Shown here: positions 11,871 to 42,997 of the stretch, in pieces | How positions within the stretch are numbered: the stretch's first letter is position 1 | Layout: each line of letters starts with the position of its first letter | NCBI GenBank assembly: GCA_017643685.1 | Contig: JAEPMY010000014.1 | Span: 1 to 46,659, forward strand | Reading direction: 5' to 3' | Length of the DNA stretch: 46,659 nt | From: Sneathiella sp. | GTDB lineage: Bacteria > Pseudomonadota > Alphaproteobacteria > Sneathiellales > Sneathiellaceae | Notes under the pieces: generated by a model | What the model was told of the DNA's origin: nothing | Seen by the model: only the letters and a program-made list of their open reading frames with translations | Database searches by the model: none | Program-made: the position numbers and the translations under genes

Positions 11871-11873
11871 GGC

Positions 11874-14684: not shown

Positions 14685-15560
14685 TTACTCGTCGTCGCTG
14701 TCTTGAAACACCTTAGGCGTGACAGCCAGATGGAACCCGTTAAAGGCTTCGTTGTTTTTATGATCCTGCAACGGCCAATGCAGGCGGGCATTCGGTGCCG
14801 CGCCATCCACCCGGATACAGTCGCCGGAAATAAAGGTCGCTGCCTCTGAGAGCAAAAACACAATGGCTGCAGATGTTTCTGATTCTGTCCCCATCCGCTT
14901 GGCCGGATTGTGGGTTGCCAGCTTTTTGATGTTTTCTTGGAACCATTCTGGATAAGTGTCCATACCGGATGACATGATCCAACCGGGGGCGACGGCGTTT
15001 ACTCGAACGCCTGACGACGCCCATTCAATAGCCGCGGTTTCTGTAAAGCTGAGCATGCCTTTTCGGGCGGCACCGGAATGGCCCATGCCGGGCATAGAAA
15101 GCCACATATCCGCGACAATATTCACAATAGAGCCGCCATTCTTTTTCATCCATTGGGTGAAACATTCACGTGCCACCAAGAAGCCGCCTGTCAGATTGTT
15201 CCGAACCACAGCGTCCCAACCTTTTTGGCTAATACTTTCAAGCGGGGCAGGGAATTGACCGCCTGCATTATTTACCAGCCCATCAATCCGCCCGTGTTCC
15301 TTCAAGATATTCGTCACGGTTTGGGCAACAGCTTCTTCGTCCCGGATATCACAGGAATGACATGTCGCGGTGCCACCAGCTTCTTCAATTTCTCCTTTTA
15401 CTGTTTCCAGTTTATCCATGGAGCGACCTACGAGGGCGACCTTGGCGCCAAGGGAGACAAGCTCGTGCGCGGTGCACCTTCCGATGCCGCTGCCGCCGCC
15501 CGTCACGATGATGGATTGACCTTTAAATAGGTCTGACCGGAAGATGGAATTATACCCCAT
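14685..15560 (-). CDS. atuB: SDR-family oxidoreductase, AtuB-like, lacking the usual catalytic Tyr
   Basis: This 291-residue protein has the SDR nucleotide motif TGGGSGIG at residues 20-27 and the NNAGG motif. The standard YxxxK active site is not there: the aligned segment reads GHSGAARKGM. This is the pattern of enoyl- or dienoyl-CoA reductase-like SDRs. About 45 residues extend beyond the core, ending in an acidic tail. It is the first gene of the operon, and the N-terminus (MGYNSIFRSDLF) recalls AtuB of the citronellol pathway, whose reaction is not settled. The promoter region upstream holds a 20-bp palindrome. Confidence 0.75.
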   Translation of the reverse strand: MGYNSIFRSDLFKGQSIIVTGGGSGIGRCTAHELVSLGAKVALVGRSMDKLETVKGEIEEAGGTATCHSCDIRDEEAVAQTVTNILKEHGRIDGLVNNAGGQFPAPLESISQKGWDAVVRNNLTGGFLVARECFTQWMKKNGGSIVNIVADMWLSMPGMGHSGAARKGMLSFTETAAIEWASSGVRVNAVAPGWIMSSGMDTYPEWFQENIKKLATHNPAKRMGTESETSAAIVFLLSEAATFISGDCIRVDGAAPNARLHWPLQDHKNNEAFNGFHLAVTPKVFQDSDDE

Positions 15561-17119: not shown

Positions 17120-18841
17120 TTAGCTAGCGGCGGCTTCCGCCTTTTTCCGCTCTTCGTATTTCTTCTGCTCCTCCTCCTTCAGCTCTTTCTTGGAGAGCTT
17201 ACCCACAAGGGTTTTCGGAAGTTCAGGCCTGAACTCAACGGCTCCTGGCAACTCGTGTTTTCCAAGCTTGTCTTTTAGGAAGGAACGCAGCTCTTCCAAC
17301 GAAAATTCGCTTTGGCCGGCTTTGAGCTTGATGAAGGCTTTGGCGGCTTCACCGCGATAATCGTCAGGGATACCAATCACCGTAACTTCTTCCACGGCTG
17401 GATGCTCAAAGATCGCTTCTTCAATCACACGTGGATAGACGTTAAACCCGCCTGACGTGATCATATCTTTTGTGCGATCCACGATAAACATGTAGCCGTC
17501 TTCATTAAGGTAGCCGGTGTCACCTGTCAGGAAGAAATCGCCGACAAATGATTCAGCGGTTGCCTCTGGCTTATTCCAATAGCCCTTCATGATGTTCGGG
17601 CCCTTGATACCAATCTCCCCAATTTCACCGGCAGGCATTGTTTTGGTTTTGTCTTCCACATCAAAGATACGGATTTCAATACCGGGAACCGGCACACCTG
17701 CAGAGCCTGCAACACGCTTATCTGTATCTGGTGTCGCCGTGCCGGATGGAGACGTCTCTGTCATGCCCCAACCTTCAAGCAAACGACATCCTGTCAGCTT
17801 CTGGAACTTGTCCTGTACTTCTACAGGCAACGGTGCGCCGCCGGAGTTGCAAAGTTTTAAGAAGCTGAAGTCGTATTTCTGAATATCTGGATGGTTTGCG
17901 ATGGCCATATACATTGTCGGAACACCGGGGAAGACTGTGGGCTTTTTCTTGGCCAAGTCTTTCATCACATCTTCCAGATCGAATTTGGGATGAAGGATCA
18001 GTTCAGACCCGCCCGCGATACCAAAGTTCATATTGACGGTCAGCGCATAGATATGGAACAGCGGCAAGACAGCCATTACTTTTTCGGTTCCATCGACGAG
18101 TTTTGCATCCTCGCCCTCCTGCATAGCACGGAGCTGCTGAGTAGACGCCACCAAATTACGGTGGGTCAGCATAGCACCTTTCGGTAAGCCAGTTGTACCG
18201 CCTGTATACTGAATAACGGCGATGCGCTCTTCTGGGTGTTTAACTTCAACTGGATCATATTTCCCGTCATTGGCGATCAATGACTTGAAGGACATATGCT
18301 TGTTGTTGTTTGGAATGCGTGAAATTTCTTTGGATTTTACAATCGGATAGAGCAGGTTTTTTGGGAAAGGCAGAACCTCTTTCAGGTTGCCAACAATTAC
18401 CTTCTTCAGGCGCGTTTTTTCGACCAGCTTACCAATGTTTGGATATAGAACCTCAAGGTCCAATGTGATCATAAAGTCAGTTTGGCTGTCTTCGATTTTA
18501 TGGATCAGTTCCCGCTCCGCATCCAGCGGCGAATAGTTCACAACTGTACCGCCCGCTTTCAGAATGCCAAAGAAGCAAACGATATATTGCGGACAGTTAG
18601 GAAGGTAGAGACCCACATGGACACCTTTGCCAACACCGAGCGCTTGAAACCCCTTTGCGGCGCGGCTGACGAGATCATCCAACTCGGCATATGTATATCT
18701 TTTGTCGAGGAAATCGATTGCGTAGTTATTTGGCCACTTTTTGACGGCTTCGTCCAAAATGGCAAAAACCGGCTTGTTTTCGATCTCAATATCCCATTTT
18801 ACCCCTTGAGGGTAAGACTTTTCCCACGGAAAATCTGACAT
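17120..18841 (-). CDS. fadD: Long-chain acyl-CoA synthetase (AMP-forming)
   Basis: This 573-residue ligase activates fatty acids to acyl-CoA through acyl-adenylate. Signatures are the P-loop-like YTGGTTGLPKGAMLTHRN, the GWGMTETSPSGTATP adenylate motif, the TGDTGYLNEDGYMFIVDR hinge region, and a C-terminal GKLSKKEL with the conserved Lys. The C-terminus ends in a Lys/Glu-rich tail. I chose the ATG at 18841, with AAGGGATTGGAG upstream; starting at 18967 would add 42 residues without homology support. It is divergent from a 72-residue protein gene, with a 15-bp palindrome in between. AtuH-like activation of isoprenoid acids is possible but cannot be told apart from general FadD. Confidence 0.92.
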   Translation of the reverse strand: MSDFPWEKSYPQGVKWDIEIENKPVFAILDEAVKKWPNNYAIDFLDKRYTYAELDDLVSRAAKGFQALGVGKGVHVGLYLPNCPQYIVCFFGILKAGGTVVNYSPLDAERELIHKIEDSQTDFMITLDLEVLYPNIGKLVEKTRLKKVIVGNLKEVLPFPKNLLYPIVKSKEISRIPNNNKHMSFKSLIANDGKYDPVEVKHPEERIAVIQYTGGTTGLPKGAMLTHRNLVASTQQLRAMQEGEDAKLVDGTEKVMAVLPLFHIYALTVNMNFGIAGGSELILHPKFDLEDVMKDLAKKKPTVFPGVPTMYMAIANHPDIQKYDFSFLKLCNSGGAPLPVEVQDKFQKLTGCRLLEGWGMTETSPSGTATPDTDKRVAGSAGVPVPGIEIRIFDVEDKTKTMPAGEIGEIGIKGPNIMKGYWNKPEATAESFVGDFFLTGDTGYLNEDGYMFIVDRTKDMITSGGFNVYPRVIEEAIFEHPAVEEVTVIGIPDDYRGEAAKAFIKLKAGQSEFSLEELRSFLKDKLGKHELPGAVEFRPELPKTLVGKLSKKELKEEEQKKYEERKKAEAAAS

Positions 18842-18978
18842 CTCCAATCCCTTATGTTGAATTCCCTGATTTTTCTTTTTCGTTAGGTTAAGTTGTGAAA
18901 GGGGGGCGGTCAAAGAAAAAAAGAGTTTCCCTAAGGGAAGGGTGGCCGTAAAAAACACATTGTGCACTGCACCAATTG

Positions 18979-25254: not shown

Positions 25255-25399
25255 TGGGTGTCCCCTTACACGTTGTTTTTTGTAAATGCTTTGAAACGGC
25301 TCTACCCCATCGGGGGAGCGTCTGTAAAGTCTCATTTAACAGATTGCGATTGTGGTATCGAGCGGTAAACTATCCCAAAACAATGGGCTGGAGGGTGTG

Positions 25400-25987
25400 A
25401 TGAGCACGGCAGAAAAAAGACAAAAGGCCATAGATGCCTGCGTAGATCAAATACGAGAGATTGTTGGGCAAGAGGATCCATCCAAGGCAACCTTGGAGAT
25501 AGTGAAAGCAAAATTGATTGAGCTATCAGCCCATAAAGATCTCTTCACTCTAGCTGATTTTCCGCCACCTGATGCAAATACGAAGCGCCGTAGCTGTCTT
25601 TATCGGTTGTCTGAGGATGATGATTTTGGCTTTGCTCTTTACGCAAATGTGGCCGATGGGAATGTGGATGCACCGCCACATGATCATACCACTTGGGCCG
25701 TTATTGTGGGGTTGTTGGGGCAGGAAGAAAACCGGTTCTATAGCCGCGCAGAGGATGGAGTGAAACAGGTCGGCGGTGCCGTTGTTGAAGAGGGGACCGG
25801 CGTGGCCCTGCTTCCTGATGATTTGCATAGTATTCATATCAAGCAGGGTGCACCTGTGTTGAACTTTCATATGTATGGCCGCGCGCTCGAACAGGTGCCA
25901 GGACGTAATTACTGGTCAGAACCTAATGGGGAGTGGCGCACCTTCCCGGCGCATACTGATATCCGTGAGGCCCGTTATGGCTATTAA
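25400..25987 (+). CDS. Cysteine/thiol dioxygenase-like cupin
   Basis: This 195-residue protein has a cupin fold of the cysteine dioxygenase kind. The iron ligands are probably His94 and His96 in PPHDHTTWAVIVGLLGQEENRFY and His143 in DDLHSIHI. It could oxidise cysteine or 3-mercaptopropionate to the sulfinic acid. The ATG at 25400 has GGAGGG just upstream; a GTG at 25352 would add 16 residues. Its stop lies 11 bp inside the next gene, a multi-rhodanese, so the two are translationally coupled and likely work in the same sulfur pathway. There is no sign of the Cys-Tyr crosslink residues that I can place with confidence. Confidence 0.82.
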   Translation: MSTAEKRQKAIDACVDQIREIVGQEDPSKATLEIVKAKLIELSAHKDLFTLADFPPPDANTKRRSCLYRLSEDDDFGFALYANVADGNVDAPPHDHTTWAVIVGLLGQEENRFYSRAEDGVKQVGGAVVEEGTGVALLPDDLHSIHIKQGAPVLNFHMYGRALEQVPGRNYWSEPNGEWRTFPAHTDIREARYGY

Positions 25988-27572
25988 GTCGGTCAAACCT
26001 GCGCAGGTTCATGCTCAGCTTAAATCAGGGGCGGAGATCGCCTTTCTAGATGTCCGTGAACATGGCGTACATGCGCAAGGGCATCCCCTTTTTGCTGTTC
26101 CCGTACCGGCGAGCAGGTTTGAACTCAATATCGAAAGGCTGGTGCCCCGAAAATCAGCGCCTGTTGTCTTGATGGGGCAGGACGAGAATGAGCCATTAAG
26201 TATGCAGGCCGCTGAGAAGATGCTCAAAATCGGCTATAGCGATGTTGCCGTGTTAGAGGGGGGCGCCGCCGGTTGGCATGCGGCGGGATTTGAGCTTTTT
26301 AGTGGCATCAATGTACCAAGCAAAGCCTTCGGTGAACTCGTCGAAGAGGTCTGCGGTACCCCACATATTTCTGCGGCGGAACTAAATGCGCGGCTTGAAG
26401 CCGGCGAAGATCTTGTCATTCTGGATAGTCGGCCATTTGGTGAGTACACCCGAATGGCAATTCCAGGGGGAATTGATATGCCGGGAGCAGAGCTGGCTTA
26501 TCGTATTTATCAAACAGTTCCTGGTGAGAAAACGACGGTCGTTGTCAATTGCGCGGGGCGAACCCGTAGCATTATTGGAGCGCAATCGCTGATTAATGCG
26601 GGTGTTAAAAATCCTGTCATGGCGTTGGAAAATGGAACTATGGGATGGTATCTCGCAGGTTTTAAGCCCGAAAATGGTGCTGATCGGGTGGCGCCACCGC
26701 CAAGTGATTCAGCTCATCAGAAATCCTGCGCCGTGTCGAAAAAGTTGACCCAAGCGCTGGGGGTTGAGGTGATAACAACGGATAAGCTGCAAAGTCTCAA
26801 AAAAATTAAAGATCGCAGCTTGTTCCTTTTGGACGTTCGCACGGAGGAAGAGTTTATTCGCTCTCACATTGATGGGGCGCAGCATGCTCCCGGTGGTCAG
26901 TTGGTGCAGGCAACTGATGAATATGTGGGTGTGAAAGGGGCAATTCTGGTTTTATATGATGACCATCATACGAGATCGCATATGACAGCTTCCTGGCTGA
27001 AACAAATGGGGTGGCGAGATGTTTACGTGCTGGAAGATACTGATAACTTGCCAGTGGTGACGGGCCTTGCATCGGTTGCGCCGGTTAAAGAGTTCGATCA
27101 GCTTTCCGCCATGGAATTGCAGGCCGTTTTGTATTCAGGGCAGCCAATCGCTGTTATCGATTTATCTCCGTCTCTCAGCTATCGCCGCGGTCATATCCCC
27201 GGTGCCAGTTGGGCTATCCGTTCCCGCCTTGAAAATGCGGTTCGTTTTTTGCCGCCTGTTGGCATGATTATTCTAACGGCAGATGATGTTCGAGTCGCAC
27301 ATTTGGCCGCGCCTGAGTTGCTGGCAGCGCATCCGCATTTAATTGTTCGTGTGCTGGAAGGGGGGAACCCTGCATGGACTCAGGCAGGGTTTGAAATGGA
27401 CGTGGGTGAGGGGCATATGCTCTCTGATTTGGATGATCAATGGTATAAGCCATATGATAACAAAGATCGGATTCGCGAAAGAATGCAGGAATATTTGGAT
27501 TGGGAGACCGCTTTGATCCCTCAAATCAAACGGGATGGAAGTGCGAATTTTCAGATCTATAAGCCGGAATGA
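25977..27572 (+). CDS. Four-domain rhodanese-like sulfurtransferase
   Basis: This 531-residue protein holds four tandem rhodanese domains, beginning at about residues 5, 120, 265 and 370 (conserved starts such as IAFLDVREHGVHAQGH, VILDSRPFGEYTRMAIPG, LFLLDVRTEEEFIRSHIDGA and AVIDLSPSLSYRRGHIPGA). Only domain 2 has an active-site cysteine (Cys192 in NCAGRTRSIIG); the same loop reads MGQDENEP, YDDHHTRS and TADDVRVA in the others. One active site with three inactive modules suggests binding or scaffolding roles for the rest. The start overlaps the dioxygenase gene by 11 bp. A role in persulfide or thiosulfate handling during cysteine breakdown is likely. Confidence 0.87.
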   Translation: MAIKSVKPAQVHAQLKSGAEIAFLDVREHGVHAQGHPLFAVPVPASRFELNIERLVPRKSAPVVLMGQDENEPLSMQAAEKMLKIGYSDVAVLEGGAAGWHAAGFELFSGINVPSKAFGELVEEVCGTPHISAAELNARLEAGEDLVILDSRPFGEYTRMAIPGGIDMPGAELAYRIYQTVPGEKTTVVVNCAGRTRSIIGAQSLINAGVKNPVMALENGTMGWYLAGFKPENGADRVAPPPSDSAHQKSCAVSKKLTQALGVEVITTDKLQSLKKIKDRSLFLLDVRTEEEFIRSHIDGAQHAPGGQLVQATDEYVGVKGAILVLYDDHHTRSHMTASWLKQMGWRDVYVLEDTDNLPVVTGLASVAPVKEFDQLSAMELQAVLYSGQPIAVIDLSPSLSYRRGHIPGASWAIRSRLENAVRFLPPVGMIILTADDVRVAHLAAPELLAAHPHLIVRVLEGGNPAWTQAGFEMDVGEGHMLSDLDDQWYKPYDNKDRIRERMQEYLDWETALIPQIKRDGSANFQIYKPE

Positions 27573-27726: not shown

Positions 27727-28923
27727 ATGGATTTGTCATTTACTGACGAAGAACTTGCCTTCCAAGCAGAGGTTCGAGAGTTTTTGGAAACAAAGCTCCC
27801 TGCTGATGTGAAAGATCGCTACGAGCGCGGTCTGCATTTCACCAAAGAGGGACAGGTTCGTTGGCAGAAAATTCTCAACGAAAAAGGTTGGATGGCGCCG
27901 AACTGGCCTGCTGAATATGGCGGGACCGGCTGGACGGCGACACAGAAATACATTTTTGCCCAAGAATTGGGGCGTGCTTCTGCTCCGCCGCCTATCCCGT
28001 TTGGGGTGAGTATGGTGGGCCCGGTGATCTATACTTTTGGGTCGCAGGAGCAGAAAGACTACTACCTTCCCCGTATTTTGAATTCTGATGACTGGTGGTG
28101 TCAGGGTTATTCTGAGCCTGGCTCCGGCTCCGACCTGGCGTCCTTGCAGACGAAAGCGGTTCGGGATGGTGATGAGTATGTGGTCAACGGTCAGAAAATC
28201 TGGACGTCCCATGCACAGCACGCGGATATGATTTTCTGTTTGGTTCGAACAGATTCAAACGCGAAAGCACAAGAAGGTATTTCTTTCCTTCTGATCGACA
28301 TGAACACACCGGGCATTACCCTGAAGCCAATCATCGGTCTTGATAAAGAACACACACTTAACGAAGTGTTCTTTGATGATGTTCGGGTGCCTGTGAAAAA
28401 CCGGGTTGGCGAGGAGAATAAAGGCTGGACTTATGCTAAGTTCCTGCTGGGTAATGAGCGGACAAGTATCGCTCGCATCTCTCAGTCCAAGCTGAAAGTC
28501 AAAAAGCTTCGGGCGATTGCCGCAGAGCAGCGCACAAATGGTGGTCTGCTGCAGGATGATACTGATTTTATGCGGAAATTGAACCAGATCGATGTCGATC
28601 TGATGGCGCTGGAATATACAGAACTTCGGATGCTTTCCCGCATTCAAAAAGGTGAAAAGCTGACTGCGGAACCGTCTTTGTTGAAGATTAAAGGGTCCGA
28701 TATTCAGCAGGCGCTGACAGAGCTTTCTGTTGAGGCGCTTGGTATGTATGGGGTTGCGTACGAAGCTGAAGAAATCCGCGAGGGGCGGAATGATCAGAAT
28801 TTTGCGCCGGATTATGCAAATGGTCCAATGGCGGAACATCTGTATCTGCGGGCGGCTTCCATCTATGGTGGTAGTAACGAAATTCAACGAAATATCATCT
28901 CCAAGATGGTTCTGGGATTATAA
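27727..28923 (+). CDS. Acyl-CoA dehydrogenase, catalytic subunit of a likely pair
   Basis: This 398-residue flavoprotein has the motif GYSEPGSGSDLASL for flavin binding, IWTSHAQHADMIF, and the C-terminal ASIYGGSNEIQRNIISKMVLGL. Glu244 in LLGNERTSIAR is at the helix G position and is the likely catalytic base. GGAG precedes the ATG. The next gene encodes a shorter dehydrogenase without a catalytic Glu, 12 bp downstream. This arrangement is known for heteromeric alpha2beta2 dehydrogenases that act on steroid or bile acid side-chain CoA esters in actinobacteria and proteobacteria (FadE26-FadE27 type). The inferred substrate here is a bulky acyl-CoA. Confidence 0.92.
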   Translation: MDLSFTDEELAFQAEVREFLETKLPADVKDRYERGLHFTKEGQVRWQKILNEKGWMAPNWPAEYGGTGWTATQKYIFAQELGRASAPPPIPFGVSMVGPVIYTFGSQEQKDYYLPRILNSDDWWCQGYSEPGSGSDLASLQTKAVRDGDEYVVNGQKIWTSHAQHADMIFCLVRTDSNAKAQEGISFLLIDMNTPGITLKPIIGLDKEHTLNEVFFDDVRVPVKNRVGEENKGWTYAKFLLGNERTSIARISQSKLKVKKLRAIAAEQRTNGGLLQDDTDFMRKLNQIDVDLMALEYTELRMLSRIQKGEKLTAEPSLLKIKGSDIQQALTELSVEALGMYGVAYEAEEIREGRNDQNFAPDYANGPMAEHLYLRAASIYGGSNEIQRNIISKMVLGL

Positions 28924-28935
28924 GGAATAACAAAA

Positions 28936-30069
28936 ATGGATTTTGAACTCTCTGAAGAGCAGGTCCTGCTGAAAGATAGTGTGGATCGTTTCGTACTTGA
29001 TAATTACGGGGCAGATGATCGCCTCAAACTGTCCCAGACAGAACTTGGCTTTAGCCGTGATCATTGGAAACAAATGGCTGAGCTGGGTTGGCTTGGCATG
29101 GCGTTCCCAGAAGAGGTTGGCGGTTTTGGCGGCGGTGCTGTTGAAACAATGATTATGATGGAAAGCATGGGTCGCGGCCTTGTGCTCGAACCATTCGTGT
29201 CCACAGTTCTTCTTGGGGGTGCGCTGATCGCAGAAGCTGGCAGCGCAGAACAGATTGAAAGCATTATTCCATCTGTTATCGAAGGTAATTTGATGCTGGC
29301 CTTTGCGTATGCAGAGCCACAGTCACGCTTCAATCTGAATGATGTTGAGACAACAGCCACCAAGTCTGGTGATGGTTATGTGCTGAGCGGTACAAAATCA
29401 GTTGTTTATCACGGCGGTACAGCCGACAAGGTTGTTGTTTCCGCCCGGACTTCCGGCGGTAGCCGCGATGCAGAAGGTATTTCCCTGTTTGTTGTGGACA
29501 CGAATGCTAGCGGTGTTGATGTTCGCAGCTATCAGACAGTAGATGGCCAGCGGGCGGCGGATATTCGTTTTGATAACGTATCTGTTGGGGCGGATGCTCT
29601 GCTCGGCGAAGAAGGTAAGGCTGCGCCAGTGATTGAGAAAATTGCTGACCGTGCAACTGCCGCTCTTTGTGCGGAAGCTGTCGGCGCGATGGCGGCTGCA
29701 AACGAGATTACCAATGAATATCTGAAAACCCGGAAACAGTTTGGTATTCCGATCGGGAAGTTTCAGGTTCTGCAGCACCGTATGGTGGATATGTATATGG
29801 AAGCGGAGCAGTCTAAATCCATGGCAGACATGGCAGCTATGAAACTGGACATTGGTTACAGCGACGAGACAAAGCGCGCTGTTTCTGCGGCTAAATCCCA
29901 AATAGGCAAGGCTTGTAAATTTGTGGGGCAGCAGTCCGTACAGTTGCATGGGGGCATGGGTATGACTGATGAATATTCCATTGGTCATTATTTCAAGCGC
30001 CTTTCCACAATTGAATTGCTGTTTGGTAACACTGATTACCATCTGAACCGTTTCTCAGCCTTGTCATAA
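28936..30069 (+). CDS. Acyl-CoA dehydrogenase-like partner subunit lacking the catalytic base
   Basis: This 377-residue protein has the dehydrogenase fold (WLGMAFPEEVGGFGGG, a degenerate FAYAEPQSRFNL in place of TEPSGGSD, and LHGGMGMTDEYSIGHYFKRLS at the end). At the helix G position Asp238 replaces Glu (ADRATAALCAEAVG), and the C-terminal motif is LLFGNTDYH, again without Glu. It is therefore probably the non-catalytic or flavin-contributing half of a heteromer with the preceding dehydrogenase, from which it is separated by 12 bp. A strong terminator follows. Independent weak activity with Asp as base cannot be excluded. Confidence 0.9.
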   Translation: MDFELSEEQVLLKDSVDRFVLDNYGADDRLKLSQTELGFSRDHWKQMAELGWLGMAFPEEVGGFGGGAVETMIMMESMGRGLVLEPFVSTVLLGGALIAEAGSAEQIESIIPSVIEGNLMLAFAYAEPQSRFNLNDVETTATKSGDGYVLSGTKSVVYHGGTADKVVVSARTSGGSRDAEGISLFVVDTNASGVDVRSYQTVDGQRAADIRFDNVSVGADALLGEEGKAAPVIEKIADRATAALCAEAVGAMAAANEITNEYLKTRKQFGIPIGKFQVLQHRMVDMYMEAEQSKSMADMAAMKLDIGYSDETKRAVSAAKSQIGKACKFVGQQSVQLHGGMGMTDEYSIGHYFKRLSTIELLFGNTDYHLNRFSALS

Positions 30070-33587: not shown

Positions 33588-33628
33588 GTTCTATGTTGCG
33601 CTGCGAAAGCAAATACATGGAGGTGCGC

Positions 33629-34918
33629 ATGCAAAAACTAAAAAAAGCTCTGGGTAAAATCTCGGCAACGGTCGCGTTGGCGGCAACTGCCTTTGGTATG
33701 ACTTCCCCCGCGATGAGTGCAGAAGACGTGATTAAGGTCGGCGTGCTGCATTCTCTCTCTGGGACAATGGCGATTTCAGAAACAACACTGAAAGACAGCG
33801 TTCTGATGCTGGTGGATGACCTTAATAAAAAAGGGGGCCTGCTGGGTAAAAAAGTTGAAGCGGTTGTTGTGGATCCGGCTTCCAACTGGCCACTTTTTGC
33901 GGAGAAAGCCCGCGAATTGATCGAAGTTGAAAAAGTTGATGTTGTTTTTGGATGCTGGACATCCGTATCTCGTAAATCTGTTCTGCCGGTTTTCGAAGAG
34001 CTGAACAGCATGCTCTTTTATCCTGTGCAGTATGAAGGTGAAGAAAGCTCCCGCAACGTATTCTATACAGGTGCGGCACCGAACCAGCAGGCTATTCCAG
34101 CCGTTGAGTATCTTATGAGTGAAGATGGCGGTAGCGTAGAGCGTTGGGTGCTTGCCGGTACTGACTATGTTTACCCACGGACAACTAACAAAATTCTGGA
34201 AGCCTTCCTGAAATCCAAAGGCGTTGCAGAAGAAGATATTATGATCAATTACACACCGTTCGGTCATTCCGATTGGCAGACAATTGTATCTGATATCAAA
34301 AAGTTTGGCTCAGCCGGCAAGAAAACAGCGGTAGTTTCCACCATTAACGGTGACGCCAACGTGCCTTTCTATAAAGAACTGGCCAATCAGGGTATCAAAG
34401 CGGAAGACATTCCAGTTGTTGCATTCTCTGTTGGTGAAGAAGAACTTGCAGGTCTGGACACCAAACCACTGGTTGGTCACTTGGCTGCATGGAACTATTT
34501 CATGAGCGTTGAATCTGAAGAAAATGCGGCTTTCATCAAAAAATGGAAAGCATTTATCGGTGATGAAAAACGCGTAACAAACGATCCGATGGAAGCGACT
34601 TACATCGGCTTCAACATGTGGGTACAGGCTGTTAAACAGGCCGGTACAACAGACATTGATGCAGTTCGTCAGGCGATGTACGGCCAGGAAGTTAAAAACC
34701 TGACCGGTGGTATGGCTGTTATGAACACCAACCACCACCTGTCCAAACCAGTTCTGATCGGTGAAATTCAGGAAAATGGTCAGATCGAAACTGTCTGGAA
34801 TACAGATGGTGTCGTGAAGGGCGATGCCTGGAGTGACTTCATTCCAGAAAGCGCCAAGCTGACCGCCGACTGGACATATCCGTTCGTATGCGGTGGCTGT
34901 GAAAAGCCAATGTACTAA
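33629..34918 (+). CDS. urtA: Urea ABC transporter, periplasmic substrate-binding protein
   Basis: This 429-residue periplasmic protein binds urea for the Urt transporter. It has a signal peptide up to about Ala31 (SPAMSA-E) and the type I binding-protein fold shared with the Leu/Ile/Val binding proteins. The motif GVLHSLSGTMAISETTLKDS near the mature N-terminus, GCWTSVSRKSVLPVFE, and the C-terminal FVCGGCEKPMY are typical of UrtA. GGAGG lies 5 bases before the ATG at 33629. It is the first gene after a sigma-54 promoter. A hairpin separates it from urtB, as is usual for highly expressed binding proteins. Confidence 0.96.
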   Translation: MQKLKKALGKISATVALAATAFGMTSPAMSAEDVIKVGVLHSLSGTMAISETTLKDSVLMLVDDLNKKGGLLGKKVEAVVVDPASNWPLFAEKARELIEVEKVDVVFGCWTSVSRKSVLPVFEELNSMLFYPVQYEGEESSRNVFYTGAAPNQQAIPAVEYLMSEDGGSVERWVLAGTDYVYPRTTNKILEAFLKSKGVAEEDIMINYTPFGHSDWQTIVSDIKKFGSAGKKTAVVSTINGDANVPFYKELANQGIKAEDIPVVAFSVGEEELAGLDTKPLVGHLAAWNYFMSVESEENAAFIKKWKAFIGDEKRVTNDPMEATYIGFNMWVQAVKQAGTTDIDAVRQAMYGQEVKNLTGGMAVMNTNHHLSKPVLIGEIQENGQIETVWNTDGVVKGDAWSDFIPESAKLTADWTYPFVCGGCEKPMY

Positions 34919-34934
34919 TCCATTCCAAATCTTG

Positions 34935-34956
34935 AAGGGGCGGTTTGCCGCCCTTT
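34935..34956 (+). terminator. Intercistronic hairpin between urtA and urtB
   Basis: GGGCGG (34938-34943) pairs with CCGCCC (34948-34953), with a G-T pair and two A-T pairs extending the stem. Only three Ts follow, so it probably attenuates or stabilises the urtA end, with partial read-through into urtB. Confidence 0.65.
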
Positions 34957-34987
34957 CATCCCCATCCTGGAAAACCGGATTATCCCC

Positions 34988-36622
34988 ATGAAAATAATAA
35001 AAAAAGCTATTCTGTTACTGAGTACTTTAACTTGCCTTGTTCTAACCGGCGCAACCCTTGGGGCTGCTTCCGAGCTGTATGATGTAACGCAAGAGCTCAA
35101 CACAAAAAGCTACTCTAAAAAAGCAAAAGTGGTTGCCAAGATTGCCGAAACAGGTGATGAGCAGGCTGCTGATATTCTTCGGGCGTTGATGGCAGGTGAT
35201 CTGTTCGCTCGAAAATCTGATAAAATTATTGTTCTGGCAGAAAAACAGCCAGATGGTGGTTATGCCTTGATTGCCCCCGGTACGGGCGCGGCGCTGGGCA
35301 CGGCTAAAAAATCAGACCTCTCAAAGGTCAAAATCAACAATCGGGTACGAAATGCTATTAAAGCGGCGCTTGGCGGCTTGGATTTGAACCATCCAGATCC
35401 TGCGAAGCGACTGGCCGCAGCAGATGCTGTTTTTAAATCTCTGGATGATGACATGCTGCCCCTGCTTGAGGCGCGTTTGAAAACAGAGGAGAATGATAAA
35501 GTTAAATCCGCGTTTGAGCAGACAATCGCGGCTCTCTATCTCAATGCAGATGTGGATTTTGCAGCTAAGGTCTCCGCCCTTCACACTTTGAAAGAAAGCG
35601 GCGGACCAGAGGTGAAATCTTTTCTCTCCCGTTATTTAGCTGAATTGCCGGAGGAGGAGGCCGAGCTTCGCAGTCAAGTCGCCGAAATTTTGGACGCTGT
35701 TGAGCGCCGACTTTCCAACTTTGCACTCGTTGAAAATCTGTTTCAGGGACTGTCTCTTGGGTCGGTTCTTCTGCTCGCGGCTATTGGTCTTGCTATCACC
35801 TTCGGGGTTATGGGGGTGATCAATATGGCCCACGGCGAAATGGTGATGATTGGTGCATATACGACGTATGTCATTCAGGAGATTTGCCGAACTTCATTTC
35901 CGGCCGGGCTTGAATATTCACTGATCGTGGCAATCCCGGCGGCATTTGTTGTGGCAGGTTTTTTCGGTGTTCTACTTGAAAAATCGGTGATCCGTTTTCT
36001 TTATGGTCGGCCGCTTGAAACATTGCTCGCCACTTGGGGGGTAAGCCTGATCTTGCAGCAATTTGTGCGCACGATCTTTGGTCCAACCAATAAAGAGGTG
36101 AGTGCACCAAGTTGGTTAAGTGGTGCTTGGGAGGTCACAAGTGGTCTTTCACTGACTTACAACCGAATTGCGATTATTATATTTGCGCTCTGTGTTCTGT
36201 TCGCCCTGATGCTGGTGCTGAAGAAAACTTTGTTTGGCTTACAGATGCGTGCCGTTACCCAGAACCGGCAGATGGCCCGTTCTATGGGGGTTGAAAGCGC
36301 AACAGTTGATAGCCTGACCTTTGGTCTTGGCTCTGGTATCGCCGGGATGGCGGGCGTTGCTCTCAGCCAGATTGACAATGTGAGCCCAAACCTTGGGCAA
36401 GCCTATATCATCGATAGCTTCATGGTGGTGGTTTTTGGCGGTGTTGGGAACCTTTGGGGAACTCTGGTTGGGGCGGGTAGCCTTGGCATCGTCAACAAGT
36501 TTCTAGAGCCATATTCCGGGGCGGTTCTCGCCAAAATTCTGGTTCTTGTTGCCATCATTCTGTTCATTCAGAAACGTCCTCGCGGGCTCTTTGCCCTCAA
36601 AGGCCGCTCCGTGGAGGGTTAA
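34988..36622 (+). CDS. urtB: Urea ABC transporter permease UrtB
   Basis: This 544-residue protein is the first permease of the urea transporter. It has an N-terminal signal-like segment (residues 8-26), then a periplasmic, HEAT-like domain of roughly 210 residues, then the LivH-type membrane domain beginning near residue 250 (LSLGSVLLLAAIGLAITFGVMGVINMAHGEMVM is its start region). The late FMVVVFGGVGNLWGTLVGA is conserved in these permeases. The extended N-terminal domain is normal for UrtB and distinguishes it from LivH. Start spacing from urtA is 69 bp; the ribosome binding site is weak. Confidence 0.95.
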   Translation: MKIIKKAILLLSTLTCLVLTGATLGAASELYDVTQELNTKSYSKKAKVVAKIAETGDEQAADILRALMAGDLFARKSDKIIVLAEKQPDGGYALIAPGTGAALGTAKKSDLSKVKINNRVRNAIKAALGGLDLNHPDPAKRLAAADAVFKSLDDDMLPLLEARLKTEENDKVKSAFEQTIAALYLNADVDFAAKVSALHTLKESGGPEVKSFLSRYLAELPEEEAELRSQVAEILDAVERRLSNFALVENLFQGLSLGSVLLLAAIGLAITFGVMGVINMAHGEMVMIGAYTTYVIQEICRTSFPAGLEYSLIVAIPAAFVVAGFFGVLLEKSVIRFLYGRPLETLLATWGVSLILQQFVRTIFGPTNKEVSAPSWLSGAWEVTSGLSLTYNRIAIIIFALCVLFALMLVLKKTLFGLQMRAVTQNRQMARSMGVESATVDSLTFGLGSGIAGMAGVALSQIDNVSPNLGQAYIIDSFMVVVFGGVGNLWGTLVGAGSLGIVNKFLEPYSGAVLAKILVLVAIILFIQKRPRGLFALKGRSVEG

Positions 36623-36625
36623 GAG

Positions 36626-37801
36626 ATGACTTCACAAAATAAGATTACAGAAAAAGGCCCGTTTTTCTCGTTGTTGTCGGGCCTTCCGGGTGGCGGTAAG
36701 GCGTTTATGGGGATACTCCTTACCGCCGCCTGCTTAACACTTGCCGGTAATCTGCTGATCCCAGAGGGGCACGCTTTGCATGTGCCCACATATCTGGTCA
36801 GTTTGATGGGCAAATATCTATGCTATGCCTTACTTGCGCTCAGTGTCGATTTGATCTGGGGCTATTGCGGTATCTTATCGTTGGGGCATGGGGCGTTCTT
36901 TGCCCTTGGTGGCTACGCAATGGGCATGTATTTGATGCGCCAAATCGGTGACCGGGGCGTTTATGGTAACGCGGAATTGCCAGATTTTATGGTCTTTCTG
37001 AACTGGCAGGAATTGCCATGGTACTGGTACGGCATGGATAACGCTTTTGTTGCGGCGATTATGGTTATGTTGGTGCCGGGATTGCTAGCGTTCATCTTTG
37101 GCTGGTTTGCGTTTCGCTCTCGTGTGACGGGGGTTTATTTCTCCATCATCACTCAGGCAATGACTTATGCGTTATTGCTCGCCTTCTTCCGTAACGATAT
37201 GGGATTTGGCGGTAATAACGGTCTGACGGATTTCAAAGATATCTTGGGCTTTGATCTCCGGGCAGATGGGACCCGCGCGGCGCTGTTCGCTGGTTCGGTC
37301 ATTGCCTTGGCAATTGGCTATCTGATTTGTGCCTTCGTCACCCAATCTAAATTCGGCCGGGTTCTAGTGGCCATTCGCGATGCGGAAAGCCGCGCCCGTT
37401 TCACAGGGTATCGGGTGGAATATTATAAGCTGGCCGTTTTCGTGATCTCTGCGGTGCTTGCGGGGATCGCAGGCGCTTTTTATGTGCCGCAGGTTGGGAT
37501 TATTAACCCATCCGAATTCTCTCCGGCCAATTCGATCGAGGTTGTGATCTGGGTTGCTATCGGTGGCCGCGGAACCCTTTGGGGGGCGGTTTTGGGTGCT
37601 GTTCTTGTAAACTGGGGCAAAAGCTACTTCACAGGGGCCTTCCCGGATCTCTGGCTTTATATGTTGGGTGGCCTATTTGTTTTCTCAACGCTGCTATTGC
37701 CAAAAGGCATTGTTGGAACCGCACCAGATGTCAAACGCTGGTTGCAGGAGAAAATGTCCGCTGGTGCAGACGCTGGTGAACCCAAGAAGGGAGAGGCCTA
37801 A
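36626..37801 (+). CDS. urtC: Urea ABC transporter permease UrtC
   Basis: This 391-residue LivM-type permease has about ten membrane segments, including SVDLIWGYCGILSLGHGAFFALGGYAMGMYL and the GGRGTLWGAVLGAVLVN motif near residue 313, which faces the ATPases. It starts 3 bp after urtB, and its TAA overlaps the urtD ATG by one base. With UrtB it forms the membrane channel of the urea importer. Confidence 0.95.
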   Translation: MTSQNKITEKGPFFSLLSGLPGGGKAFMGILLTAACLTLAGNLLIPEGHALHVPTYLVSLMGKYLCYALLALSVDLIWGYCGILSLGHGAFFALGGYAMGMYLMRQIGDRGVYGNAELPDFMVFLNWQELPWYWYGMDNAFVAAIMVMLVPGLLAFIFGWFAFRSRVTGVYFSIITQAMTYALLLAFFRNDMGFGGNNGLTDFKDILGFDLRADGTRAALFAGSVIALAIGYLICAFVTQSKFGRVLVAIRDAESRARFTGYRVEYYKLAVFVISAVLAGIAGAFYVPQVGIINPSEFSPANSIEVVIWVAIGGRGTLWGAVLGAVLVNWGKSYFTGAFPDLWLYMLGGLFVFSTLLLPKGIVGTAPDVKRWLQEKMSAGADAGEPKKGEA

Positions 37802-38574
37802 TGGAAGCGGCTACCTTACAAAAACGGAGCGGTGCGGTGACGTCTATCCTTTATCTGGATGGGGTGAGTGTCAGTTTCGACGGGTTCAAGGCCATTAATG
37901 ATCTGAGCCTAACCGTGGCCCCCGGCGAAATGCGGGCGATTATTGGTCCCAACGGCGCGGGTAAAACCACCATGATGGATATTATCACCGGAAAAACCCG
38001 ACCTGATATCGGTGAAGTCTTCTTTCGTGACGAGATCGACCTCACGCAGCTGGATGAGGCGCGCATAGCCAATTTAGGAATAGGCCGTAAATTTCAGAAG
38101 CCAACCGTTTTCGAAAGTCAGAGCGTTTTTGACAATCTGGAGCTGGCGCTGAAGTGCGACAAGGGGCCGTTTGCCAGTCTTTTCTATAAAATGAGCGAGG
38201 ATCATCTTGCGCGGATTGAAGAGGTTTTGAACATCATTCGATTGGAAGATCGTCGGGATTGGCTCGCAGGGAATTTGTCCCATGGTCAGAAACAGTGGCT
38301 GGAAATCGGAATGCTGCTGATGCAGGACCCTGATCTCCTGCTGGTGGATGAACCTGTTGCCGGGATGACCGATGCGGAAACGGTGCAAACCGCTGATCTT
38401 CTTCGGGAGATTGCGAAAACCAGATCTGTTGTGGTGGTTGAACATGACATGGAGTTCGTTCGGGCGCTGGATTGCAAGGTCACGGTCCTTCACGAAGGGC
38501 ATGTCCTTGCAGAAGGCGGTCTTAAAACCGTGTCCGAAAATCCTGAAGTTATCGATGTGTATTTGGGGCGCTGA
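37801..38574 (+). CDS. urtD: Urea ABC transporter ATP-binding protein UrtD
   Basis: This 257-residue LivG-type ATPase has Walker A GPNGAGKTT, a signature-like LSHGQKQWLEIGMLL and Walker B LLVDEPVAGM, followed by the EHDMEFV switch histidine. The LSHGQ signature in place of LSGGQ is common in UrtD. It overlaps urtC by one base and is 2 bases from urtE, so stoichiometry may be set by coupling. Confidence 0.95.
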   Translation: MEAATLQKRSGAVTSILYLDGVSVSFDGFKAINDLSLTVAPGEMRAIIGPNGAGKTTMMDIITGKTRPDIGEVFFRDEIDLTQLDEARIANLGIGRKFQKPTVFESQSVFDNLELALKCDKGPFASLFYKMSEDHLARIEEVLNIIRLEDRRDWLAGNLSHGQKQWLEIGMLLMQDPDLLLVDEPVAGMTDAETVQTADLLREIAKTRSVVVVEHDMEFVRALDCKVTVLHEGHVLAEGGLKTVSENPEVIDVYLGR

Positions 38575-38576
38575 TC

Positions 38577-39272
38577 ATGCTGGCTGTTGAAAATATTGAT
38601 TTATTTTATGGTGCCAGTCAGGCGCTAAAAAAAGTTTCTCTGACCGTGAACAAGGGAGAGGTGACCTCTTTGATGGGGCGTAATGGCGTAGGGAAAACCA
38701 GTACGCTGCGGGGTGTTGTGGGGCAACATCCTATTACATCAGGGAAGATCACCTGGGAGGGTGAGGATATCTCGTCTCTGGGGGCAGCAAAACGCGCGCG
38801 CAAAGGAATTGCTGTTATTCCTCAGGGACGGGATATCTTCCCACTGCTCACGGTTGAGGAAAATCTTAAAACCGGCTTTGCCTGCTTGCCGAGAAGTGAG
38901 CGGCGGATTGATGATGAGATTTTCGATTTGTTTCCGGTTTTGAAAGATATGCTGGGGCGGCGTGGTGGCGACCTGTCTGGGGGACAACAACAGCAACTGG
39001 CCATTGGTCGGGCGCTGGTAACCAAACCGCGCCTGTTGGTCTTGGATGAGCCAACGGAAGGCATTCAACCTTCCATTATCAAGGATATCGCAAGAGTGAT
39101 CGCCAAACTTCGGGATCGCGGAGATATGGCTATTTTGCTCGTAGAGCAGTATTTTGAATTTGCTCGGGACTTGGCGGATAGATTTGCCGTTATGGATCGG
39201 GGGGAAATCATGCTCGAAGGGCGAAAAGAAGAAATGAAAGAAAGCGATGTCCGGCGCTACCTTACCGTATAA
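38577..39272 (+). CDS. urtE: Urea ABC transporter ATP-binding protein UrtE
   Basis: This 231-residue LivF-type ATPase has Walker A GRNGVGKTS, signature LSGGQQQQLAIGRAL, Walker B LLVLDEPTEGIQPSI and the switch region LLVEQYFEFA. It pairs with UrtD to energise urea import. Its last 26 bp overlap the start of ureD, which joins the transporter and urease parts into one unit. Confidence 0.95.
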   Translation: MLAVENIDLFYGASQALKKVSLTVNKGEVTSLMGRNGVGKTSTLRGVVGQHPITSGKITWEGEDISSLGAAKRARKGIAVIPQGRDIFPLLTVEENLKTGFACLPRSERRIDDEIFDLFPVLKDMLGRRGGDLSGGQQQQLAIGRALVTKPRLLVLDEPTEGIQPSIIKDIARVIAKLRDRGDMAILLVEQYFEFARDLADRFAVMDRGEIMLEGRKEEMKESDVRRYLTV

Positions 39273-40113
39273 ACAGGGGGTGACACCTCGACTTGCCCGG
39301 TCGGAGGGGCAGGTCGAGGTGTCAATTATTCAAAAAAATGGCAACAGCGTCATCAAACGGTTGTTTCAATCGGGATGTGGGCGTGTGCGCTTTCCTGAGG
39401 TGGATCACAAAGATTTGCCAGAAGCCGTATTGATCAACACATCTGGCGGTTTGACCGGCGGTGATGGGATGGCATATCGGTTAAGTGCCGAGGCTGGAGC
39501 TGGCCTCACCGTAACGGGGCAAGCGGCTGAGAAAATCTATAAATCATTGGGCGATCCCGTTCATATCAACAGTGATATCACTGTGGGAGCGGATGCTTAT
39601 TTGGAATGGATGCCGCAGGAAACAATCCTGTTTGATCGAAGCCATCTGGATCGTTTGAACCGGGTTGAGTTGGAAGAGACGGCTACGTTTCTGGGGGTTG
39701 AAGCCAATGTATTTGGCCGGACGGCTCACGGGGAAGTGGTGCGGGATATCAAAATCCGCGATGCCTGGCAGGTTCGGCGGGGCGGCAAATTGATCTGGTT
39801 TGATCGGTTTCTGTTTGATGGAAATGCCCATGAAGAGTTATCGCGCCCTGCATTGTTAAACGGAGCCGTGGCCATGGGGACGATTATTTGTGCGGGCAAA
39901 AACGTTGCTGAGTTAGTTGATCCGCTGCGGGAGAAATCTGAAGAAATGGAAAGCCGCGTCGGGATTAGTGCACTGGAGGATGATTTCATCATTTTACGAA
40001 TTATGGATGAAAATGCGGCGCGTTTTCGTGTTCATATGATGACCATCATACGAGTTTTAAGAAACAGCCTTCGGGGCGGGGATAACCCGATGCCGACGGT
40101 CTGGAAAATATAA
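39247..40113 (+). CDS. ureD: Urease accessory protein UreD
   Basis: This 288-residue protein is the UreD scaffold that binds apo-urease and helps deliver nickel with UreF and UreG. Key segments are [17 protein letters not shown] and [14 protein letters not shown], followed by [16 protein letters not shown]. The ATG at 39247 lies inside urtE; a GTG at 39280 is an alternative, preceded by AGGGG directly next to it, which is too close to serve as a ribosome binding site. The overlap makes coupling with urtE likely. The length is at the upper end of the family. Confidence 0.92.
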
Positions 40114-40124
40114 AGGGAAGGGAC

Positions 40125-40427
40125 ATGCAATTTTCACCGAGAGAGAAAGATAAGCTTCTGGTGTCATTGGCAGCTATGGTCGCTCGTGGCCGATTGGCGC
40201 GGGGTGTGAAACTGAACTACCCAGAGGCCATTGCCATTATCACGGACTATGTGGTGGAAGGGGCCCGCGACGGCAAAAGCGTTGCCACATTGATGGCCGA
40301 AGGCGGGGAGGTCATTTCAAAAGAGCAGGTCATGGATGGCATCGCCGATATGCTGCAAGAGGTGCAGGTCGAAGCCACTTTCCCGGACGGCACCAAACTT
40401 GTCACCGTTCATAATCCCATTCGATAG
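40125..40427 (+). CDS. ureA: Urease gamma subunit
   Basis: This 100-residue subunit begins with the conserved [20 protein letters not shown] region and contains [21 protein letters not shown] and the late [15 protein letters not shown], all standard for UreA. It packs against the alpha subunit in the (ABC)3 urease trimer. It starts 11 bp after ureD and lies 9 bp before ureB. Confidence 0.97.
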
Positions 40428-40436
40428 GAGGCGCCC

Positions 40437-40751
40437 ATGAAACCGGGAGAAATTATTCCAGCAGAGGGGACGCTAGTCCTAAACGCGGATAAAAGCACCA
40501 AAACCCTAACAGTTGCCAATACGGGCGATCGCCCTGTTCAGGTAGGGAGCCACTATCATTTTGCTGAGGTGAATTCCGGCCTTGAGTTTGATCGGGAAGC
40601 GGCAAGAGGATGTCGGCTTGATATCCCATCGGGCACCGCTATTCGCTTTGAGCCTGGGCAGTCACGAGATGTGACGCTGATCGATATTGGCGGAAAACGC
40701 GAGATTTATGGGTTTAAAGGCGATGTTATGGGCGCCTTGGGGGGGAATTAA
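40437..40751 (+). CDS. ureB: Urease beta subunit
   Basis: This 104-residue subunit has the UreB signatures [26 protein letters not shown], and the [28 protein letters not shown] end region. GGAGG lies 6 bases before the ATG. It is a separate gene as in most proteobacteria, not fused to ureA as in Helicobacter. It is 1 bp from ureC. Confidence 0.97.
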
Positions 40752-40752
40752 G

Positions 40753-42465
40753 ATGCCAGCAGAAATGACACGCCGTGCCTATGCAGGCATGTTTGGTCCA
40801 ACCGTCGGTGACAAGGTTCGTCTTGCCGATACGGATATCATCATCGAGGTGGAGAAGGATTTCACCACCTATGGTGAAGAAGTGAAATTTGGCGGCGGTA
40901 AAGTAATCCGCGACGGAATGGGGCAATCACAGATTACCCGTGCCGGAGGGGCGGTTGATACGGTCATCACAAACGCACTGATCATCGATCACTGGGGAAT
41001 TGTCAAAGCTGATGTGGCTTTGAAAGATGGAAAAGTGGCGGCTGTTGGAAAAGCGGGCAACCCCGATATTCAAAACGGTGTTGATATCATTATTGGTCCT
41101 TCCACCGAAGTGATCGCGGGCGAGGGTAAAATCCTGACCGCTGGGGGCATTGATGCTCACATCCATTTTATCTGTCCGCAGCAAATCGAAGAAGCACTGG
41201 CAAGTGGCGTGACGACTATGATGGGCGGGGGAACAGGTCCTGCAACGGGGACCAACGCAACAACTTGTACGCCGGGCGCGTTTCATATCGCCCGAATGCT
41301 CCAAGCGGCAGAAGCCTTTCCAATGAACCTTGGGTTTTTCGGAAAAGGGAATGCCAGCCTGCCTGAAGGATTGCAAGAGCAGGTCGCGGCCGGCGCCTGC
41401 GGCTTGAAATTACATGAGGATTGGGGCACCACACCAGCGGCTATCGATTGTTGTCTTGGGGTTGCCGATGAAATGGATGTGCAAGTCCTGATCCATACCG
41501 ATACCCTTAATGAAAGTGGTTTCGTTGAAGATACCATTGCGGCGTTTAAAGGTCGGACGATCCACGCGTTTCATACCGAAGGAGCGGGGGGTGGGCATGC
41601 CCCGGATATCATCCGGCTTGCGGGTGAAGATAACGTTATTCCCTCCTCCACCAATCCGACACGTCCTTTCACGGTCAATACGATTGACGAGCATTTGGAT
41701 ATGTTGATGGTATGTCACCATCTGGATCCAAATATTCCAGAAGATGTGGCATTTGCCGAAAGCCGTATTCGCAAAGAAACGATTGCTGCGGAAGACATCC
41801 TGCATGACATGGGGGCTTTCTCCATTATCTCGTCCGATAGTCAGGCCATGGGCCGTGTTGGTGAGGTTTTGGTGCGGACCTGGCAGACAGCAGATAAAAT
41901 GAAGAAGCAGCGGGGGCGTTTGGCGCAGGAAATGGGTGATAACGATAATTTTCGCGCTAAAAGATATATCTCTAAATATACGATTAATCCTGCAATTGCA
42001 CAGGGTATCGACAGTTATGTTGGATCCATCGAGGTTGGAAAACTTGCCGATCTGGTCCTGTGGTCTCCTGCCTTTTTTGGAGTGAAACCTGATCTGGTTC
42101 TGAAAAGCGGCACAATTGTCATGGCGCCAATGGGAGATCCAAATGCATCTATCCCGACACCTCAACCGGTTCACTACCGTCCGATGTTTGGATCCTTTGG
42201 CAAAAGCCTGACTGCAAGTTCCGTAAGTTTCGTTTCTGAAGCCGGATTAGCTGCGGATTTGAAAGGGCAGTTGGGATTGGAGCGGGAGTTGCTACCTGTT
42301 AAAAATACTCGCGGCGGCATTGGCAAGAAATCCATGATCCATAATGATGCGACCCCTGATCTGCAGGTTGACCCTGAAACATATGTTGTGACCGCTGATG
42401 GTGAAGTGCTGGCTTGTGAGGCAGCAACGGAACTGCCAATGGCACAACGCTATTTTATGTATTAA
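40753..42465 (+). CDS. ureC: Urease alpha subunit, catalytic
   Basis: This 570-residue subunit holds the dinickel site that hydrolyses urea to ammonia and carbamate. Ligands and catalytic residues are in place: His136 and His138 in GIDAHIHFI, the carbamylated Lys219 in LKLHEDWG, the flap His322 in MVCHHLDP and Asp362 in ISSDSQAMG. The ATG at 40753 ([20 protein letters not shown]) is the family start; the frame is open from 40687 but that extension lies inside ureB. The protein is of normal length and appears fully active. Confidence 0.98.
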
Positions 42466-42469
42466 GCCC

Positions 42470-42997
42470 ATGAAAACAGCATTGGAACTGATCCCGGCGA
42501 ATGAAGCGTTCGCTGGTGAAATCGTCGGGGATGTCACCCTTGATTTTGATAGCCGTCGCCGTCGCCGTATCCGCCTTGAAACGGATGAGGGGGATCCTTT
42601 TTTGTTGAACCTTTCTGAGGTAAAAACTCTGCGGGATGGGGATGTTTTGAAACTAGATGACGGCTGCGGCATTCGGGTGAAAGCCGCACCAGAGCCGGTG
42701 GTCGATGTTACGTGTCACAATACCGCTGAGCTGGTGCGGGTCGCATGGCATTTGGGAAACCGGCACCTGCCGACCCAATTGATGGGCGATCGGCTTCGCA
42801 TCCGACAAGACCATGTGATTGAGGATATGCTGGAAAAATTGGGGGCCACACCAACCCGTGTCGAGGCACCTTTTAACCCTGAAGGCGGGGCTTACGGACA
42901 TGGGGAGACTATGGGGCATGATCTTAGCGGTCATAGTCACGATCATAGCCATGAACACGGGCACGAACATGCACATTCTCATGATCATTCGCACTAA
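42470..42997 (+). CDS. ureE: Urease accessory protein UreE, nickel carrier
   Basis: This 175-residue metallochaperone supplies nickel to the UreDFG complex. The N-terminal domain begins MKTALELIPANEAFAGEIVGD and the metal-binding domain includes WHLGNRHLPTQLMGDRLRI, with the His used for nickel between dimers. The C-terminus is a His-rich tail of about 30 residues with repeated (G/S)H(D/E)H units (13 or more His), which stores extra nickel. The ATG at 42470 is 4 bp after ureC; a longer frame open from 42398 lies within ureC. Confidence 0.94.
   Translation: MKTALELIPANEAFAGEIVGDVTLDFDSRRRRRIRLETDEGDPFLLNLSEVKTLRDGDVLKLDDGCGIRVKAAPEPVVDVTCHNTAELVRVAWHLGNRHLPTQLMGDRLRIRQDHVIEDMLEKLGATPTRVEAPFNPEGGAYGHGETMGHDLSGHSHDHSHEHGHEHAHSHDHSH

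Follow-up and report, generated by a model that had tools for sequence, protein, structure and literature searches.

PimC and PimD are the large and small subunits of the pimeloyl-coenzyme A (CoA) dehydrogenase and are encoded in the pimFABCDE operon of Rhodopseudomonas palustris. ChsE4-ChsE5 (FadE26-FadE27, Protein Data Bank (PDB) 4x28) and Tcur3483-Tcur3481 (PDB 6wy8) are alpha2beta2 acyl-CoA dehydrogenases of steroid side chains. We analyzed a 46,659-nucleotide stretch of Sneathiella sp. DNA (GenBank assembly GCA_017643685.1, contig JAEPMY010000014.1), called the window hereafter, and more precisely two of its genes, assigned by profile searches to a PimC-like large, catalytic alpha subunit of 398 residues (27727-28923, + strand) and a PimD-like small, non-catalytic beta subunit of 377 residues (28936-30069, + strand). 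The preliminary description of this DNA had reported two dehydrogenase genes 12 bp apart, and both indeed lie on the same strand with this spacing; the gap (GGAATAACAAAA, 28924-28935, +) has a purine-rich start and presumably holds the ribosome-binding site of beta. In our analysis, the pair very probably forms a PimCD-like heteromeric acyl-CoA dehydrogenase, an architecture of a kind already known. It shares with PimC-PimD the best family of each subunit, the gene order and 52-57% identity to relatives of the Bradyrhizobium-type clade, but it scores below both family cut-offs, forms its own clade and lies outside any pim operon.

The division of labor between two such subunits is documented for ChsE4-ChsE5 and ChsE1-ChsE2, for which the available text of PMC11153573 places the isoalloxazine ring of the flavin adenine dinucleotide (FAD), the catalytic glutamate and the substrate site in alpha, and the contact with the ADP-ribose part in beta. 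This published division is what the motifs of the window pair predict. Our pair has the catalytic glutamate and the partition of the FAD site in common with ChsE4-ChsE5 and Tcur3483-Tcur3481, but identity is only ~30%, the alphas belong to separate clades and steroid catabolism is not indicated in the window. CasC of Rhodococcus jostii RHA1 is a fused steroid dehydrogenase with the catalytic glutamate in one half and a requirement for the other half to bind FAD (PMC8399759, available part). It resembles the window pair in its two dehydrogenase halves, only one of which has the catalytic glutamate; however, CasC is a fusion whose catalytic half is C-terminal, whereas the window pair consists of two genes. 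Finally, the accessible sections of PMC12543098 describe a PimCD-like pair of Ralstonia CL21 (ABZR87_RS14790/14795) with strong fitness defects in randomly barcoded transposon sequencing (RB-TnSeq) on C8, C9, C10 and C12 dicarboxylic acids and a weak defect on heptanoic acid; homologs in three other beta-proteobacteria have a similar fitness profile, and a heterotetramer is suggested by the authors. Our pair is likewise made of adjacent PimCD-like dehydrogenases, a likeness drawn by description only and with a phenotype that comes from other organisms.

Probable division of the active site between the two subunits

Alpha and beta each carry three Pfam acyl-CoA dehydrogenase domains, and their nearest families are, judging from profile scores, clearly PimC and PimD: the top NCBIfam models are TIGR03204 (pimC_large, 506.6 bits) for alpha and TIGR03203 (pimD_small, 449.2 bits) for beta, both over the full length. 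In three ordinary acyl-CoA dehydrogenases of the window, which served as a comparison set (599-1789, 8743-9903 and 11874-13034; helix-G glutamate placed by eye), the flavin loop, the helix-G glutamate, RxxFG and QxxGGxG all stand in one chain. In the pair, alpha has the flavin loop (YSEPGSGSD, residues 128-136, 28108-28134, +) and, on helix G (LLGNERTS), the presumed catalytic base Glu244 (28456-28458, +), which aligns with residue 247 of FadE26 (4x28_A), and it lacks both RxxFG and QxxGGxG. Beta is the reverse: it keeps RKQFG (residues 266-270, 29731-29745, +) and QLHGGMG (residues 336-342, 29941-29961, +), its flavin loop is degenerate (AEPQSRF, residues 126-132, 29311-29331, +), its catalytic position on helix G is occupied by Ala240 (29653-29655, +) and its C-terminal motif, LLFGNTDYH, has no glutamate. 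At the sequence level, the FAD site is thus divided, with the flavin loop in alpha and the ADP-binding motifs in beta. The preliminary description had correctly singled out Glu244 of the first gene, as well as the altered flavin loop and the C-terminal motif of the second.

This pattern holds almost throughout a motif census of 144 alpha and 143 beta sequences, the rows of which are not independent since both sets contain many relatives from the genus. Motif flags were restricted to the aligned region in this census, in the 18 loci of lone alphas and for the gamma-proteobacterial alphas discussed below, and were taken from whole reading frames for the tandem-alpha loci, the diverged-beta loci, the fusion locus L239 and the flanks of those gamma-proteobacterial alphas. 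Position 244 is a glutamate in 144/144 alphas, and S129, E130, G134, S135 and D136 are each found in 143 of them, the remaining row being gapped; an RxxFG-like motif occurs in 0/144 and QxxGGxG in a single one (L127). On the beta side, R266, F269 and Q336 are invariant (143/143), the RxxF pattern is present in 142 and the QxxGG pattern in 139, and within the flavin loop E127 is kept in 142 and R131 in 128. The helix-G position of beta is never acidic (A in 113, G in 21, V in 5, T in 3 and S in 1). As for the C-terminal position, it is a glycine in 143/143 betas, the alphas having glycine in 134 rows, alanine in nine and a gap in one.

The preliminary description had also put Asp238 of beta at the helix-G site. 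In the register read by eye from HMMER alignments to the isovaleryl-CoA dehydrogenase 4o5m and to Tcur3481, this residue sits two positions before the catalytic one. An Asp-x-Ala arrangement is also present in Tcur3481, the beta of a solved heteromer, when the HMMER alignment is read in the same way by eye, and of the 143 betas, 117 have D and 4 have E at position 238, the other 22 being non-acidic there. We therefore rejected Asp238 as a catalytic relic, given the two-residue shift and the 22 non-acidic betas.

Pairing of the two genes is conserved as well. An alpha lies at most 400 bp from beta for 131 of the 143 betas, 124 times in the alpha-beta order and seven times reversed, and three loci carry tandem alpha-alpha-beta genes (L082, L116 and L118). 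Two natural alpha-beta fusions were found, one in the same genus (L104, a 775-residue frame at 8667-10994, -) and one in another bacterial family (L239, a single frame at 4523-6907, +), both with the domain order opposite to that of CasC. Beta scores above 400 bits in 23 of 24 genus genomes. In a survey of 299 sampled genomes, alpha was detected in 61 (E up to 1e-85) and beta in 49 (E up to 1e-70); phylum searches scored six candidates per genome, so that copy numbers are lower bounds. One locus was taken from each of the 12 alpha-only genomes, and a diverged beta adjoins alpha in all 12 (164-237 bits), on the opposite strand in L219. Hence, we discarded the idea of beta-less genomes, the gap being a threshold effect.

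Structure models add to this picture for alpha. The alpha model (mean predicted local distance difference test score, pLDDT, of 82.9) falls below 50 only at residues 130-135 and 377-381, i.e., in the flavin loop and the C-terminal motif. Its best match is 6wy8_B (Z 34.6, rmsd 3.2, 372 aligned residues), followed by 4x28_B (Z 34.1), 8hk0_B of the Fic32-33 complex (33.9) and 6wy9_A (33.9); these top four all come from two-protein complexes, and the fifth row drops to Z 31.7. The beta model has a mean pLDDT of 94.2 and matches homomeric and heteromeric enzymes almost equally well: 6wy8_A (Tcur3481) reaches Z 46.4 at rank 31 and 4x28_C (FadE27) Z 45.8 at rank 43, slightly below the homomeric enzymes that come first, so that the beta fold does not discriminate between the two types.

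We propose that alpha and beta form one heteromeric, probably alpha2beta2, acyl-CoA dehydrogenase that would introduce an alpha,beta double bond into its acyl-CoA. Alpha would hold the isoalloxazine ring, bind the acyl-CoA and supply Glu244 as the base; beta, having lost catalysis, would provide the RxxFG and QxxGGxG residues across the subunit interface for the ADP part of the same FAD, so that each alpha-beta dimer would contain a single FAD and a single active site. The quaternary structure and the number of FAD molecules are probably as in the ChsE complexes, by analogy with which they are predicted. A heteromer of the ChsE4-ChsE5 type is very probable, and this reading is well supported at the residue and gene level by the complementary active-site halves, the conserved pairing and the natural fusions, which also uphold the earlier view of one catalytic and one non-catalytic subunit.

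Substrate and gene neighborhood

The likeliest substrates would be dicarboxylic acids of medium to long chain length, in the form of their CoA esters, in the manner of a PimCD-like enzyme. This assignment, made by analogy with the PimCD relatives and from a PimA-like neighbor, has in our view an about even chance of being right. The neighbor is an acyl-CoA ligase gene (17120-18967, -) that is not in an operon with the pair; its best family is TIGR03205 (pimA, 587.5 bits, under the cut-off of 705.6). Of 25 host-family genomes, 22 have one PimA-like ligase (E at most 1e-130). Five of these 22 carry it on a contig that does not hold the pair, and in all 17 genomes that have both on one contig, sister genus included, ligase and alpha are 5.1-10.5 kb apart. 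As members of one genus inherit part of their gene order in common, this linkage is moderate evidence.

Phylogenetic analyses place the pair beside, and not within, the Bradyrhizobium-type Pim clades. In the alpha tree (65 rows, with long-branch warnings), the PimC clade of Bradyrhizobium type (99/99) has several subclades beside it, among them the window group (100/98); the beta tree has the same main subclades, and its Bradyrhizobium-type PimD clade (100/99) likewise excludes the window. R. palustris is not included by name in these trees, nor are proteobacterial Scd1AB in the alpha tree.

Several observations weigh against a dicarboxyl-CoA heteromer of the PimCD type. Neither tree places the window clade inside the corresponding Bradyrhizobium-type clade, PimC or PimD, and the substrate may therefore have changed. 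Both curated cut-offs are missed (623.85 for TIGR03204 and 652.7 for TIGR03203), as they are in all of the 25 host-family genomes (0/25 reach them). There is no pim operon at the window: the PimA-like gene lies 9 kb off in the opposite orientation, and the neighbors of the pair are rhodanese and DUF423 genes, not pimFABCDE. The Bradyrhizobium locus L142 has a pim-like cluster of FadB, ligase, thiolase, alpha, beta and short-chain dehydrogenase/reductase (SDR) genes, with which the window thiolase shares only 35% and the window FadB only 32% identity. Moreover, 12 of the 143 betas have no intact alpha within 400 bp, three of them being without a dehydrogenase neighbor in the flank examined and four standing beside a degenerate one, and the best matches of the beta model are ordinary homomeric dehydrogenases (Z 48.2). 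All in all, we consider the complete reading, i.e., an alpha-beta heteromer that is PimCD-like and has dicarboxyl-CoA as its likeliest substrate, to be somewhat more probable than its alternatives taken together.

It is possible, though rather unlikely, that the same heteromer acts on another substrate, such as a fatty acyl-CoA with a branched or medium-length chain, or a thio-acid. Apart from the separate clade of the pair outside the strict PimCD clade, the window is full of other acyl-CoA catabolic genes, and a thio-acid would fit the two overlapping genes that lie upstream (25352-27572, +), a cupin-like gene recognized by eye and a four-domain rhodanese gene (four Pfam rhodanese stretches). 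These directly precede the pair in most host-family loci compared, sister genus included. However, this linkage was not seen in the 13 compared loci from outside the host family, and the PimA-like ligase points to dicarboxylates. The first of these genes (25352-25987), which had no Pfam match, is one that we take to be cysteine-dioxygenase-like or cupin-like.

The preliminary description saw in this architecture the hallmark of steroid side-chain enzymes and, with no other steroid genes in view, raised bile acid, hopanoid or other bulky CoA esters as options. The architecture is indeed that of ChsE4-ChsE5 and Tcur3481-Tcur3483, the latter providing the closest solved alpha by sequence and one of the closest by fold, and a gene for SCP2 is located 12 kb from the pair. 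Yet this architecture also occurs outside steroid enzymes, and the best families of the pair are PimC and PimD. In the alpha tree, FadE26 and Tcur3483 are outside the PimC-like group (99/89), and forcing the window group together with them costs 25.0 units of log-likelihood (-25.0; approximately unbiased (AU) test, p 0.0196), a comparison to which the long-branch warnings also apply. KshA_C, the sole steroid marker searched, was not found in the host genome (92.8% complete) and gave weak hits in 2 of 24 genus genomes, 23 of which have beta, while the PimA-like ligase is a conserved neighbor. We thus no longer retain a steroid enzyme as first choice; the steroid inference is not supported, and a heteromer acting on the side chains of steroids, bile acids or other polycyclic compounds is improbable. 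Still less credible is the view of two separate homomeric dehydrogenases that are neighbors by chance: each protein has a complete three-domain dehydrogenase fold, but alpha lacks RxxFG and QxxGGxG and beta both catalytic positions almost throughout the sampled family, pairing is conserved and fusions exist.

Elsewhere in the window, a biotin-dependent acyl-CoA carboxylase cluster (5250-15560, -; carboxylase genes at 9900-11870 and 13053-14672) also includes two dehydrogenases, an enoyl-CoA hydratase, an SDR, and TetR-like and thioesterase-like genes; we presume a resemblance to leucine/acyclic-terpene (Liu/Atu) clusters, and the TetR name is likewise our assumption. Downstream of the pair are urea ABC transporter genes (33593-39272, +; urtA-D by NCBIfam and urtE by position) and an apparent complete urease operon, named by eye (39247-44316, +). 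A promoter and terminator scan stayed within about one standard deviation of shuffled sequence. No relative was confirmed in the viral contigs searched, and 158 plasmid records match alpha (E up to 1e-80), each with less than 60% identity.

Unpaired alphas and betas

The window beta is the only PimD-like protein of the host genome at E up to 1e-45. The same genome (G000) has a second PimC-like alpha without a dehydrogenase neighbor (contig C23, 9413-10612; L066:9410-10615) and a third one (contig C17, 21976-23172; L067:8971-10176). The second alpha class, of the C23 type, counts 21 copies in 20 of 25 host-family genomes, and none is within 1 kb of a beta; the main alpha is within this distance in 23 of 24 cases, the exception (G010) having its pair on two contigs. 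G011 has two equal copies, maybe an assembly duplicate. All 18 C23-type loci examined keep the glutamate and the flavin loop; RxxFG and QxxGG are missing from every one of them, as is any other dehydrogenase from the flank examined. The C-terminus of one (L205) looks broken. The third, lower-scoring class has a weak dehydrogenase neighbor in L067 and L207 and none in L208.

Lone alphas are also found in other genomes. Eight of ten alpha-rich genomes, chosen for their apparent alpha richness and not at random, have one to four alphas without a beta within 1.5 kb, based on the higher-scoring rows (40 beta and 35 alpha) and on flanks checked for most lone alphas; in G308, alpha and beta are both near contig ends and may be neighbors. 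The survey of 299 genomes had listed 127 alpha places, and part of those without an obvious beta were followed in 40 regions. Each genome in which a lone alpha was seen has a beta above 400 bits somewhere. Since the 18 C23-type alphas keep the glutamate and the flavin loop without the motifs supplied by beta, they should need a beta encoded elsewhere for FAD binding. Alternatively, lone alphas might have another mode of FAD binding or be partnered by an ordinary dehydrogenase.

The converse situation was observed among the 12 unpaired betas. Four are near contig ends (L083, L159, L168 and L172), and in one (L175) the alpha is split in two pieces and lies on the opposite strand. In L113, L117, L119 and L121, betas of 445-467 bits directly follow a degenerate alpha-like frame (23-126 bits) with no intact flavin loop or helix-G glutamate, the L121 frame having a glutamate at the C-terminal position; the flanks examined around L120, L125 and L132 contain no dehydrogenase. 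These last seven betas, close relatives of the window beta, come from gamma-proteobacterial genomes with 7-23 alpha-like genes each (E up to 1e-40), only alphas having been counted there, the best at 359-412 bits. Twelve of these alphas were inspected: all have the helix-G glutamate and none has RxxFG or QxxGGxG. A beta adjoins one of them (L260), another dehydrogenase that is a possible partner lies near four (L249, L250, L252 and L253; 34-138 bits), and seven, in five genomes, are without a dehydrogenase neighbor.

Lone alphas with a beta elsewhere, and lone betas with alphas elsewhere, fit an assembly in trans around a shared beta, and do not prove it. We tentatively suggest, at slightly less than even chances, that one beta serves several alphas encoded elsewhere in the genome. 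FadE31 is said to pair with both FadE32 and FadE33. The available portions of PMC6593523 and PMC6429209 are silent on such a pairing, and a literature search of open-licence works retrieved no publication on shared or interchangeable dehydrogenase subunits.

In conclusion, the steroid claim fails and is corrected to a PimCD-like enzyme, the architecture claim stands, and the idea of a shared beta is the part worth testing. The analysis also provides residue criteria for heteromers, an alpha having the glutamate without RxxFG/QxxGGxG and a beta the reverse, and by reasoning from sequence these would expose lone alphas unable to hold FAD alone and lone betas unable to catalyze alone. If beta is indeed shared, dehydrogenase partnerships could not be read from the gene neighborhood, and swapping alphas on a single beta would broaden the range of substrates combinatorially. 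Dicarboxylate catabolism would then include a shared component that can be swapped, which would be easy to test.

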